From NCBI GenBank assembly GCA_903861645.1, contig CAIOVE010000053.1, positions 1-34,909 of the forward strand: a stretch of DNA of 34,909 nt, given 5' to 3'. Each line of letters starts with the position of its first letter. The stretch's first letter is position 1. The notes beneath the pieces are model-generated. The model did no database searches, was not told where the DNA came from, and worked only from the letters and a program-made list of their open reading frames with translations. Below, one piece after another: positions 1-4,589 of this stretch. The translations under genes were made by a program, and so were the position numbers. This DNA comes from an uncultured Hyphomicrobiales bacterium. Lineage in GTDB: Bacteria > Pseudomonadota > Alphaproteobacteria > Rhizobiales > Beijerinckiaceae.

Positions 1-9
1 GTCGCCTCT

Positions 10-40
10 CTTGAATCACAAACGATTCATTCGATTCAAG
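10..40. repeat. Inverted repeat CTTGAATC / GATTCAAG inside the left IS end
   Basis: Perfect 8-bp arms at 10-17 and 33-40 are separated by 15 bp, with a further CGATTCA direct repeat at 23-29 and 32-38. It lies within the presumed 5' non-coding end of the IS. It may be a transposase-binding or transcription-control element. No T-run follows on either strand, so it does not look like a terminator. Confidence 0.45.
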
Positions 41-233
41 AACTCATCGGACAGACACTAAGGCCAAAGACAATCTCTGAAAATTTTCGATCGTCATCCG
101 CTTCGATGACACCCTGTATGCCTACCAACGACACCCCATCTCGTGCGTCCTTCTGGACGAATATTTCTGCGGAGTGGGTTTGGGTGTTGGCCACCAGCGC
201 GAATGCGAAGAAGCCGATCATTGAGTTTTTCAT
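36..233 (-). pseudogene. Small secreted protein, 3' end truncated by the IS
   Basis: The start at 233 is supported by an AGGCGG ribosome-binding site and opens a 65-codon frame. The first 22 or so residues form a signal peptide (MKNS, then a hydrophobic run, then THSAE), so the product was periplasmic. The mature part has the pattern VSLVGIQGVIEADDDRKFSEIV, which loosely resembles the start of periplasmic ClpP-like proteins of the COG3904 type; that match is weak and from memory. Host sequence ends at 59. The last residues (SVCPMSS) are read from the IS, and the same SVCP peptide appears where the acyltransferase enters the other IS end. The original gene must have been longer and is probably non-functional. 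It is divergent from the ilv operon. Confidence 0.6.
48..58. repeat. IS terminal inverted repeat, left copy
   Basis: The plus strand reads CGGACAGACAC, the reverse complement of GTGTCTGTCCG at 34773-34783. Eleven identical bases at both window edges, each at the point where a host reading frame stops making sense, identify this as the IS boundary. Confidence 0.7.
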
Positions 234-259
234 TACGAGCCGCCTAATGGCAGTCCCAG

Positions 260-288
260 CTTGACCCCCGCGCCGCTCTGGTCTAACT
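260..288 (+). promoter_or_regulatory. Predicted housekeeping promoter of the ilv operon
   Basis: CTTGAC at 260-265 is followed by exactly 17 bp and then CTAACT at 283-288, matching four of six bases of the CTATAT element known for rhizobial sigma-70 promoters. Transcription would start near 295, about 20 nt before the leader peptide start, which is a suitable layout for an attenuated operon. Predicted from sequence only. Confidence 0.55.
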
Positions 289-315
289 GAAAAGGGATTA
301 ACCGGGAGTTTGATC

Positions 316-369
316 GTGCGTTCGCACAATCTCGTAGTAGGACTGGCGCTGGAGACGGGACGGGTCTAG
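316..369 (+). CDS. Leader peptide of the ilv operon (attenuator)
   Basis: A GTG start at 316 lies seven bases after GGGAG (304-308) and opens a 17-codon frame encoding [17 protein letters not shown], stopping at TAG 367-369. Six of its 17 codons are Leu or Val: CTC GTA GTA GGA CTG GCG CTG, then GTC before the stop. These are end products of the pathway encoded downstream, which is the hallmark of a ribosome-mediated attenuator. Attenuation of ilvBN by a leader transcript is established in Caulobacter, another alphaproteobacterium. The stop codon sits inside the first hairpin (360-375). An in-frame TTG at 310 would add Ile but is too close to the ribosome-binding site. The peptide is too short to be found by standard gene callers. 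Confidence 0.75.
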
Positions 370-380
370 ACCCGTTTTTC
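360..380 (+). promoter_or_regulatory. Attenuator hairpin overlapping the leader stop codon
   Basis: ACGGGTCTAGACCCGT (360-375) is a perfect 16-bp palindrome followed by TTTTT. It can form a 6-bp stem with a CTAG loop that contains part of the leader stop codon. GGGTCT at 362-367 can alternatively pair with AGGCCC at 400-405 (six pairs, one G-U), which would block the terminator at 400-422. It is therefore a candidate regulatory switch segment, or itself a weak terminator. Pairings were deduced by eye. Confidence 0.6.
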
Positions 381-399
381 CCGCCGATGGCGCTGACAC

Positions 400-422
400 A
401 GGCCCCCGAGTGGGCCTTTTTT
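400..422 (+). terminator. Attenuator terminator upstream of ilvB
   Basis: AGGCCC (400-405), loop CCGAGT, GGGCCT (412-417) form a perfect 6-bp GC-rich stem continuing into a run of six T (417-422). It lies between the leader peptide and the ilvB start, so it would stop transcription before the structural genes unless the competing pairing with 362-367 forms. An intrinsic terminator here makes no sense as the end of another transcript, because the upstream gene runs the other way. Confidence 0.7.
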
Positions 423-467
423 ATTGCCCAGAATTCCCGGACGCGACGCGAAAGACGGAGACCAGCG

Positions 468-2240
468 ATGTCGAGACAGATGACCGGCGCGGAAATGGTG
501 GTCGAGGCCCTCAAGGATCAGGGCGTCGAAACGATATTCGGTTATCCCGGCGGCGCGGTCCTGCCGATCTATGACGCGATCTTCCAGCAGAATTTCGTGC
601 GTCACGTGCTCGTTCGTCAGGAAGGCGGCGCGGCGCACGCGGCCGAGGGTTACGCGCGTTCGACCGGCAAGGTCGGCGTGTTGCTCGTCACCTCCGGGCC
701 CGGCGCGACAAACGCCGTCACCGGCCTCGCCGACGCGCTGATGGATTCCATTCCGCTGGTCTGCCTCACCGGGCAGGTGCCGACGCATCTGATCGGCTCG
801 GACGCCTTTCAGGAGTGCGACACGGTTGGCATCACCCGCCACTGCACCAAGCACAACTATCTTGTCCGCAACATCGAAGACCTGCCGCGCATCCTGCACG
901 AGGCCTTCTACGTCGCGTCGAGCGGCCGGCCCGGCCCGGTGGTCGTCGATCTGCCCAAGGACGTGCAGTTCGCCATGGGCGCCTACGAGCGGCCTGAGTT
1001 CAAGGGTCACAAGACCTATCAGCCGAAGCTCGATGGCGACGCGGACCGCGTGGCGCGCGCCGTCGAGATGATGGCGAAGGCGAAGCGGCCGATTTTCTAC
1101 ACCGGCGGCGGCATCATCAATTCCGGGCCCGAAGCGTCCAAGCTGATCCGCGAACTCGTCGGCATCACCGGATTCCCGATTACCTCGACGCTGATGGGGC
1201 TCGGCGCCTATCCCGCGTCCGGGCCGAACTGGCTCGGCATGCTCGGCATGCACGGCACGTTCGAGGCCAACAACGCGATGCACGATTGCGATCTGATGAT
1301 CTGCGTCGGCGCTCGCTTCGATGATCGCATCACCGGGCGTCTCGACGCCTTCGCGCCGGATTCGAAGAAAATCCACATCGACATCGACCCCTCGTCGATC
1401 AACAAGAACGTGCGCGTCGACCTGCCCATCGTCGGCGATTGCACGCGCGTGCTCGCCGAGATGATCCGCGTCTGGCGCGCCAGCGGCGCGGCTGTCGAAA
1501 AGGCTGCGCTGGCGTCTTGGTGGAAGCAGATCGACGCGTGGCGCGAGCGCAAGTCGCTCGCCTATCGCCCGTCGAAGAAGACGATCAAGCCGCAGTACGC
1601 CATCCAGCGTCTGTATGAACTGACGAAGGATCGCGACACCTACATCACGACGGAAGTCGGCCAGCACCAGATGTGGGCGGCGCAGTACTATCACTTCGAG
1701 GAGCCCAATCGCTGGATGACCTCCGGCGGTCTGGGCACGATGGGCTACGGCCTGCCCGCCGCCATCGGCGTGCAGATGGCGCATCCCGAGGCGCTTGTGA
1801 TCGACATCGCCGGCGACGCCTCGATCCTGATGAACATTCAGGAGCTCTCGACCGCCAAGCAGTATCGCGCGGGCGTCAAGATCTTCATCCTGAACAACGA
1901 ATACATGGGCATGGTGCGTCAGTGGCAGGAATTGCTGCATGGCGGCCGCTACGCCGAGAGCTACACGGAATCGCTGCCCGATTTCGTCAAGCTCGCGGAC
2001 GCCTATGGCGCCAAGGGCATCCGCTGCTCGGACCCCGCCGATCTCGATCGCGCCATCATGGAGATGATCGACACGCCCGGCGTGGTGATCTTCGACTGCA
2101 TCGTCGAGAAGGAAGAGAATTGCTTCCCGATGATTCCGTCGGGCAAGGCGCATAACGACATGATCCTCGCCGAGCTTGGCGACGACGCCGGCGTCGAACT
2201 CGGCGCCATCATCGACGAGAAGGGCAAAATGCTGGTGTGA
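468..2240 (+). CDS. ilvB: Acetolactate synthase large subunit
   Basis: The 590-residue product is the catalytic subunit of acetohydroxyacid synthase. It condenses two pyruvates to acetolactate, or pyruvate with 2-ketobutyrate, in the first common step of Val/Leu/Ile synthesis, using ThDP, Mg and FAD. The start at 468 has GGAG seven bases upstream; the open frame extends to 387 but that stretch is the attenuator. The N-terminal PYR domain begins [11 protein letters not shown] and has the catalytic Glu in [14 protein letters not shown] (E52). The ThDP-binding motif starts GDASILMN at residue 449 and runs through [12 protein letters not shown]. It reads GDA where the textbook motif is GDG. Length is normal for the family. 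The regulatory subunit follows after 61 bp. Expression is probably controlled by the leader-peptide attenuator. Confidence 0.97.
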
Positions 2241-2301
2241 TCGGCCGCTTTTCACGGCAACGATCCCCCGCCAGCCAACGAACCATCCCGGAAGGCCAGA
2301 C

Positions 2302-2868
2302 ATGAACGCCATCACGCCGCCCCCCGCGCCCATTCCGCCCTCGCCGTATTCGTCGGCGCTGGGCAAATCCAACAGCGAGAGCCACACGCTCAGCGTGCTG
2401 GTCGACAACGAGCCGGGCGTTCTGGCGCGGGTCGTCGGGCTGTTTTCCGGCCGCGGCTATAATATCGAGAGCCTGACGGTCGCCGAGGTGGCGCACGCCG
2501 AGCATTTCTCGCGCATCACCATCGTCACCTCCGGCCCACCCGAGGCGATCGAGCAGATCACCCATCAGCTTGAGCGGATCGTGCCGATCCACCGGGTCAC
2601 CGACTTGACTGTCCACGGCAAGGCCATCGAGCGCGAACTCGCCATGGTCAAGGTGCGCGGCAAGGGCGACGACCGCATGGAGGCGCTCAGGCTCGCCGAG
2701 GCTTTCAAGGCGCGCGTCATCGACGCGACCATCGAGAGCTTCATTTTCGAGCTGACCGGCGCGCCGGGCAAGATCAACGACTTCGTCGAGCTCATGCGCC
2801 CCATCGGCCTGATCGAGGTGTCGCGGACGGGCGTTGCCGCCATCACCCGCGGCGCGGCGGGCATGTAG
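2302..2868 (+). CDS. ilvN: Acetolactate synthase small (regulatory) subunit
   Basis: The 188-residue protein is the regulatory partner of IlvB. In this family it binds valine and confers feedback inhibition while raising catalytic activity. The start at 2302 has GGAAGG six bases upstream; an upstream extension of the frame into ilvB is not needed. A proline-rich N-terminal tail of about 25 residues precedes the first ACT domain (about 29-103: HTLSVLVDNEPGVLARVVGLF, then GYNIESLTV). The second half (about 110-185), with RELAMVKV and FELTGAPGKINDF, is the C-terminal ACT-like domain. Length and order match the long alphaproteobacterial form (ilvH/ilvN). The name ilvN is used because of its ilvB partner. 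Confidence 0.95.
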   Translation: MNAITPPPAPIPPSPYSSALGKSNSESHTLSVLVDNEPGVLARVVGLFSGRGYNIESLTVAEVAHAEHFSRITIVTSGPPEAIEQITHQLERIVPIHRVTDLTVHGKAIERELAMVKVRGKGDDRMEALRLAEAFKARVIDATIESFIFELTGAPGKINDFVELMRPIGLIEVSRTGVAAITRGAAGM

Positions 2869-2943
2869 GGGCTTTCCTCGAACGGCGACCAGTTGGCCGA
2901 CCGGCCAATGGACAAATGCTCTGAATTGCGGCCTAATCCCGTC

Positions 2944-3470
2944 ATGAACGACGATACGACACGCGAGGGTGGCCAGTCGCCGGCGCGATACTCGCGCACC
3001 CGGGTCGAGCAGGATTTTCTGGAAGCGTTTGAATCCTTCGGTTCGCGCGCGTTCTTCGATTACCTCGAACGGTATCTGCGTTCCGATGGCGTCATGGTCT
3101 GCAACTGTCCGCCGCAGTTGCTGCAAATCGGCGGCACTCATCGCGGCTATGACGACGTTGTCACGGCGCTGCGCTCGTTCTTCATCGAATTCAGGGTGCT
3201 GGCGACCTCGGTCGACGATATCGTCATCGATGGCGCGCATGTTGTCATCAACTACCACATGCAACTCAGCCACGTGGGCACGGGGCGGACGGGCCGGGTG
3301 AGCGGCATCAATCATTACGTGCTCGACGCCGACCGGAAGATCTCGAATGCAGCGTTTTCCTCGATAACGCCTCCCTCGCTGTCATTGGCGACGTGCTCGA
3401 CACGTTCGCCGATATCGCCCGGGGGATGGCTGACGTCCGGAAACGGCGCGACGACGACGACGTCCCATAG
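2944..3470 (+). pseudogene. NTF2/SnoaL-like protein with an apparent frameshift
   Basis: The frame from ATG 2944 (earlier TTG 2893 and ATG 2908 possible) encodes an NTF2-like cone-fold protein: VEQDFLEAFESFGSRAFFDYL, then VVTALRSFFIEF and VVINYHMQLSHVG. After DADRKIS (3343-3345) this frame becomes Ser/Thr/Pro-rich and runs to 3498 with poor codon use. The next frame, taken from 3348, instead reads CSVFLDNASLAVIGDVLDTF and continues to a stop at 3468-3470, with the GC-rich third positions of a real gene. One base appears to be missing around 3346-3348. The repaired product would be about 175 residues. This is either a true lesion or a sequencing error. A TTGGCC/GGCCAA inverted repeat at 2893-2908 lies upstream. 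No specific function can be given. It sits between ilvN and ilvC in the same direction. Confidence 0.65.
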
Positions 3471-3509
3471 GCGTTTCGCCGGTTTGACGGACTCGTGAAG
3501 CCCGCTTAG

Positions 3510-4589
<1,080 letters not shown>

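Follow-up and report, generated by a model that had tools for sequence, protein, structure and literature searches.

The attenuation of ilv genes was known in alphaproteobacteria before this analysis. An attenuator of ilvBN has been described in Caulobacter crescentus (Tarleton et al. 1994, as cited in PMC4117421), as the sequence-only reading of the present DNA had noted. An article from 2005 counts the ilvB leader peptide among the alphaproteobacterial elements called previously described (PMC1273637, citing Vitreschak et al. 2004). The same work on alphaproteobacterial ilvB leader peptides is also cited in PMC6123439, and PMC2573895 refers to it when listing an 'ilvIH cis regulatory' element of S. 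meliloti. That reading had also held that the exact form of the leader may be undescribed in its lineage. This claim is weak, given the Caulobacter system, the earlier ilvB leader peptide and the Rfam family RF02502 (Atu_C8), of which the element described here is, judged by sequence comparison, a homologue.

The window, i.e., the whole stretch of 34,909 nucleotides that was analysed, belongs to a genome of 4.18 Mb in 108 contigs. The elements of the putative attenuator lie upstream of ilvB, ilvN and ilvC, and a frame with a SnoaL-like domain (2893-3498) is located between ilvN and ilvC. The following features were assigned, the start of ilvN being taken from the reading frame:

261 to 288, + strand: putative promoter of the leader RNA, with the -35 box TTGACC at 261-266 and a weak -10 box near 282-288 (sequence and TTGAC conservation)
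304 to 308, + strand: Shine-Dalgarno-like GGGAG, 7 nt before the GTG (sequence)
316 to 369, + strand: leader peptide gene with GTG start, 17 codons and TAG stop (leaders of the same form in relatives)
331 to 345, + strand: putative control codons CTC GTA GTA GGA CTG (Leu Val Val. Leu), among which GTA is rare
345 to 394, + strand: P1-P3 hairpin, the putative anti-antiterminator, with the stop codon in its apical loop (folding, covariation in relatives)
380 to 414, + strand: predicted antiterminator, GGC(G)CUG 389-395 with CAGGCC 399-404, extended by 380-386 with 407-414 (folding)
400 to 422, + strand: intrinsic terminator AGGCCC-CCGAGT-GGGCCT followed by a U run (terminator scan)
468 to 2240, + strand: ilvB, acetolactate synthase large subunit, ATG at 468 (Pfam TPP_enzyme N, M and C)
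2302 to 2868, + strand: ilvN, acetolactate synthase small subunit (Pfam ALS_ss_C and ACT_AHAS_ss, 2332-2868 searched)
3570 to 4589, + strand: ilvC, ketol-acid reductoisomerase (Pfam KARI_N and KARI_C)

Most parts that had been proposed from the sequence alone were found again. GGGAG and the GTG-started leader can be read directly; the codons of the latter are GTG CGT TCG CAC AAT CTC GTA GTA GGA CTG GCG CTG GAG ACG GGA CGG GTC TAG, six of them for Leu or Val. The terminator was recovered by the scan, with AGGCCC (400-405) and GGGCCT (412-417) as the arms of its stem and T417-422 as its U run. The palindrome over the leader stop codon is perfect (ACGGGTCTAGACCCGT, 360-375). As for the promoter-like pair at 260-288, its -35 part is good and conserved in place; its -10 part is poor, and no sigma-70 pair above the cut-off of the consensus scan was found in window positions 1-2500. 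In 28 of the 30 genus sequences, counting the window, and in 61 of 67 others, a TTGAC is present at a distance of 30-75 nt upstream of the leader start; the background is 12.6% of the 45-nt windows taken from genus upstream regions, promoters included. The Shine-Dalgarno-like motif precedes the leader start in 23 of the 30 genus sequences but in just 30 of the 67 others. The locus thus presents several features expected of an ilv-type attenuator: by sequence, a short frame with codons for the product amino acids; an anti-antiterminator hairpin overlapping the leader end; an intrinsic terminator between the leader and the first structural gene; and a promoter upstream of the leader, recognised by TTGAC conservation and not by a scan-passing pair.

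The recurrence of this arrangement was followed in relatives. From named genomes, the best 80 of 596 matching stretches were used. Sixty further relatives were added, of which 54 had a match and six had none, and upstream regions were read for 49 of the 54. No IlvB match was obtained at the cut-off in six of the 37 genus genomes. Among the matches listed, the named genomes with a close ilvB include Methylocystis, Methylocella, Chelatococcus and Bosea, which points to a lineage in the Rhizobiales, probably in the Beijerinckiaceae. The resulting 137 loci gave 129 ilvB upstream regions, the window included, after leaving out L002-L008, which encode other thiamine-pyrophosphate enzymes, and L100, which has no upstream sequence. 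A script called a leader where a frame of 7-30 codons contained at least three Leu, Ile or Val codons among five consecutive ones and ended 5-90 nt before an intrinsic terminator.

Both leader and terminator were present in 101 of the 129 regions. Four mis-picked leaders (L021, L023, L024 and L029) were re-assigned, two regions (L106 and L118) removed and two duplicates (L093 and L120) left out; in the 97 regions kept, 22-44 nt separate the end of the leader stop codon from the terminator. In the other 28 of the 129 regions the script did not find the pair: 24 had no terminator of score 18, and four (L063, L104, L124 and L128, with L104 truncated) had a terminator and no leader. Several of the 24 are partial cases. 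A Leu/Ile/Val leader is present in L053, L055, L062 and L084, the model search placed the element further upstream in L098, and L113 is truncated. For loci L038-L117, 58 of 79 ilvB upstream regions passed the loose cut (at least three of five Leu/Ile/Val codons plus terminator) and 55 of 79 the strict cut (four of five), compared with 18 and 5, respectively, of 88 control terminators elsewhere in the same loci. Within the genus, most leaders read LIVV..AP.TGRG with small changes. The window leader has retained GTA GTA and lacks Ile codons, as do several other genus members, e.g., L013, L017 and L021. Its CTG 349 replaces the proline codon of most genus members, and its CTG 343 falls at a variable position of the genus alignment.

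Covariation supports the hairpin. In the free-leader fold, P1 comprises 345-351/388-394, P2 356-360/379-383 and P3 361-365/370-374. Across 30 aligned genus sequences, 97.5% of the cells in the P1-P3 and terminator pairs are paired, and 22 cells are changed on both sides, compared with a shuffled mean of 6.3; none of 500 shuffles reached this value. Column pairs of P1-P3 reach z 13.6 in 77 sequences, in an alignment fitted to the covariance model itself. When own and swapped segments were compared, the own pair was better for the terminator (z -17.1) and for P1 (z -10.5). The terminator helix is paired in 99.4% of the cells of the 30 genus sequences, and its own covariation amounts to z 0-1.7 only; with so little variation in the terminator arms, covariation can hardly decide there. 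A covariance model built from the genus finds one strong copy in the window's own genome (E 2.6e-25; next hit E 0.39). It matches 31 of the 31 genus loci searched, 30 of which had trained it, and gives 77 matches among the 100 sources presented to it, a subset of the loci. Taken alone, 296-425 does not fold with unusual stability (z -0.63; 48 of 200 shuffles had an energy as low), and the evidence is therefore comparative and not thermodynamic. The alignment of relatives which had been proposed as a check thus bore out the conserved Leu/Ile/Val codons and the covarying stem P1-P3, and it gave no covariation for the antiterminator pair of the sequence-only reading (see below).

Codon usage points in the same direction. 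GTA accounts for 126 of 242 Val codons (52%) in the 97 leaders and for 58 of 3,611 (2%) in the ilvB genes of the same set, short or interrupted ilvB stretches having been skipped. In the window, two of the three leader Val codons are GTA, compared with one among the 108 Val codons of four neighbouring genes. This strong enrichment in the ilv leaders suggests that the tRNA reading the rare GTA codon is the sensor. Since GTA GTA is kept, Ile is missing and CTG occurs at 343 and 349, the window attenuator should sense valine first and leucine perhaps.

Taken together, the leader, its rare codons, the hairpin, the terminator, the promoter and the place before ilvB recur in relatives, and the view of the element as a ribosome-mediated transcription attenuator of ilvB(N) has stood up, with a probability of roughly 0.87. 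RNA polymerase would start about 20 nt before the GTG. With charged Val-tRNA and Leu-tRNA available, a ribosome translating the leader would reach the stop codon at the apex of P1-P3, the terminator helix (400-417) would form, and transcription would end before ilvB. If no ribosome is present, P1-P3 and the terminator would form together and transcription would end as well. When charged Val-tRNA is short, the ribosome would stall at the rare GTA GTA and cover the 5' arm of P1 (345-351); CTG 343 could be a second sensor, for leucine, although CTG codons are common in this DNA. The freed 3' arm of P1 would then pair with the 5' arm of the terminator (389-395 with 399-404), and the polymerase would read through.

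For this last step, the folding of the window and the comparison with relatives differ. In the window, 389-395 with 399-404 is predicted by folding as the better antiterminator candidate. When the leading edge of the ribosome is moved stepwise along the leader, the computed probability of the terminator is 0.99-1.0 for edges up to 346, 0.78 at 349, 0.37-0.19 at 352-361, 0.96 at 364, 0.40-0.15 at 367-379 and 1.0 at 382. At edges 352-361, the terminator 5' arm pairs upstream with a probability of 0.52-0.67. With this edge taken at about +15 from the A-site codon, stalling on GTA 337 or CTG 343 is thus predicted to favour the alternative hairpin, and a ribosome at the stop codon the terminator. 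The probability also drops at 367-379, so that the predicted release depends on the assumed footprint; averaged over offsets of 12-17, it is 0.99 for the free, 0.60 for the stalled and 0.69 for the stop-codon state.

Across the 97 sequences, the mean terminator probability in the stalled state is 0.97, with values below 0.8 in only three, the window among them. Termination should occur in the free and stop-codon states as well, yet values below 0.8 were obtained there for 9 and 7 of the 97 sequences, respectively. In the stalled state, the terminator 5' arm is paired to a greater extent than in shuffles for only 44 of the 97 sequences; this control also destroys P2 and P3 and is hence biased. 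In a second test, the P1 3' arm and its neighbours alone were shuffled. The 2:3 segment was then higher than the mean of its shuffles for 26 of the 30 genus sequences, which are related and do not count as independent, and in 22 of 47 others, and p <0.05 was reached in 2 of 30 and 1 of 47, respectively. With own versus swapped partners, 2:3 pairing gave z -3.0 in the genus and +1.7 outside. Among pairs canonical in more than 70% of the sequences, no column pair between the terminator 5' arm and upstream positions exceeded z 1.9. A conserved antiterminator is thus not evident from comparing the relatives, and either the antiterminator would act kinetically or the family would let the polymerase pass in another way.

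The latter reading, attenuation without a classical antiterminator, differs from the main explanation in its last step alone and overlaps it. The ribosome would act through P1-P3 by pausing, by coupling to the polymerase or by kinetic capture of the terminator 5' arm. The strong covariation of P1-P3, beside the low z values of upstream pairing with the terminator arm, the stalled-state terminator probability of at least 0.8 in 94 of the 97 sequences and the few significant 2:3 segments speak for it. On the other side, covariation is a weak test for terminator arms that are nearly invariant, equilibrium folding ignores kinetics, and an antiterminator is predicted for the window. For Corynebacterium ilvBNC, the terminator and the antiterminator, which overlap, are described as interchanging rapidly (PMC11857589). 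Overall, a non-classical last step is considered rather unlikely.

Further alternatives concern the Rfam family RF02502, which is catalogued as 'Rhizobiales sRNA Atu_C8'. Its model matches window positions 315-433 over the full length with 24.7 bits (E 0.0059 for 251 bases searched), which is below the gathering cut-off of 50 bits; in the stricter search of the whole genome, no match was obtained at E 0.01. Three of nine loci tested were above the cut-off, i.e., the ilvB leaders of Agrobacterium (L099), Sinorhizobium (L076) and Mesorhizobium (L068), with 100.9-121.2 bits. Conversely, the genus-built model R1 finds the Agrobacterium (E 3.3e-5) and Sinorhizobium (E 1.2e-5) leaders, these E-values being rough, so that a homologous element sits at the same locus. 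Among 199 genomes of the order, 110 have an RF02502 match at E<=0.01 and 27 exceed the cut-off, compared with none of 14 controls. In 29 of 30 fetched loci, the N-terminus of IlvB lies just downstream of the element. This position, together with the leader content, indicates that the catalogued Atu_C8 small RNA is, by place and content, an ilv attenuator leader. In full-text searches of openly accessible papers, none was seen to name Atu_C8 as an ilv attenuator, and the term itself returned one unrelated rice paper.

Some copies of the element deviate from the usual pattern. Two genomes carry two Atu_C8 copies each (G059 on contigs C1559 and C1049, G223 on C120 and C67), and the second copy of G059 is closely followed by an IlvB paralogue that shares 64% identity with the IlvB of the window. 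In another genome (G163, contig C2 near 433741; L143:1502-1612), an Atu_C8-type element precedes an MFS transporter gene, and its leader, read by eye, is MIAIDMVVVGRRMGTAA. It would be a branched-chain attenuator that has moved to a new gene, and the transporter is accordingly predicted to respond to valine. In the Sinorhizobium locus, RF02346 (ar35, an alphaproteobacterial sRNA) exceeds the cut-off at L076:7940-8068, about 4 kb downstream of the ilvB leader. A weak match of Rfam BcKCsr2 (RF02883) at 310-422 of the window was set aside as unspecific, because the family gives matches below the cut-off in 8 of the 14 control genomes and, in the window's own genome, at four places that lie outside the window.

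A second life in trans for the terminated leader RNA, and perhaps its peptide too, has been reported for the Sinorhizobium trp attenuator (PMC10117765), and is improbable in the present case. If it were true, one conserved hairpin would serve both attenuator and small RNA, the same module having been taken up in front of a transporter gene by at least one relative (L143). A leader RNA acting mainly in trans as a small RNA, with the terminator as its 3' end and ilvB transcribed independently, would agree with the catalogue name and with the copy before the transporter gene. Such a role is very unlikely, as ilvB adjoins the element in all but one of the fetched loci and the conserved in-frame Leu/Ile/Val run with its rare GTA would have no role.

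The exact model of the sequence-only reading had GGGTCT (362-367) freed by stalling so as to pair with AGGCCC (400-405) and block termination. The two segments are able to form six pairs, one of them G-U, and 78% of the cells pair in the 30 genus sequences, more than in any slide by one to three columns. Shuffles did as well, however, in 144 of 500 cases on cells paired and 101 of 500 on covariation, and own partners had no advantage over swapped ones (z -0.5 within the genus and +0.6 for all sequences). In the full leader, none of the leading edges that leave the pair free gives it a probability above 0.00, and before the terminator 3' arm is made the probability is at most 0.06, because 362-367 is held in the 356-383 hairpin. 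The folding of competing structures that had been suggested thus yields an alternative hairpin at 389-395 with 399-404 in place of this pair, whose part in antitermination is highly improbable. Finally, a riboswitch or a leader sensed by an RNA-binding regulator, with the short frame incidental, would suit the conserved structured hairpin P1-P3 and is hardly credible, given that no Rfam family, riboswitches included, reaches its gathering score anywhere in the window and that relatives share the frame, the control codons and the codon bias.

The attenuator reading has consequences beyond this locus. It points to an ilv attenuator leader, present well beyond Rhizobium, behind the catalogue entry of a Rhizobiales small RNA. 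Moreover, the aligned covarying hairpin and control codons offer a basis for testing alphaproteobacterial attenuation.

Among the known systems, the ilvBNC leader of Corynebacterium glutamicum, from another phylum, encodes 15 residues, MTIIRLVVVTARRLP (PMC11857589). Its terminator and anti-antiterminator have counterparts in the window, and CUU and GUA are the control codons there; its antiterminator was tested by mutation, whereas that of the window is predicted. The Caulobacter ilvBN attenuator resembles the window in its leader of branched-chain codons and its rho-independent terminator before ilvBN. Its leader differs in sequence and has, as summarised in PMC4117421, tandem Ile and Val codons, in contrast to the Leu and Val codons, without Ile, of the window; in Caulobacter sp. 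Root655 (L110), the leader MIVLMERPFTA is followed by a terminator. RF02502 is labelled as a small RNA and not as an attenuator, and its hairpin sequence and leader differ from those of the window, the Agrobacterium leader (L099) being VLIVVGRRMGRMV. Leader, long hairpin, terminator and the place before ilvB are alike in both.
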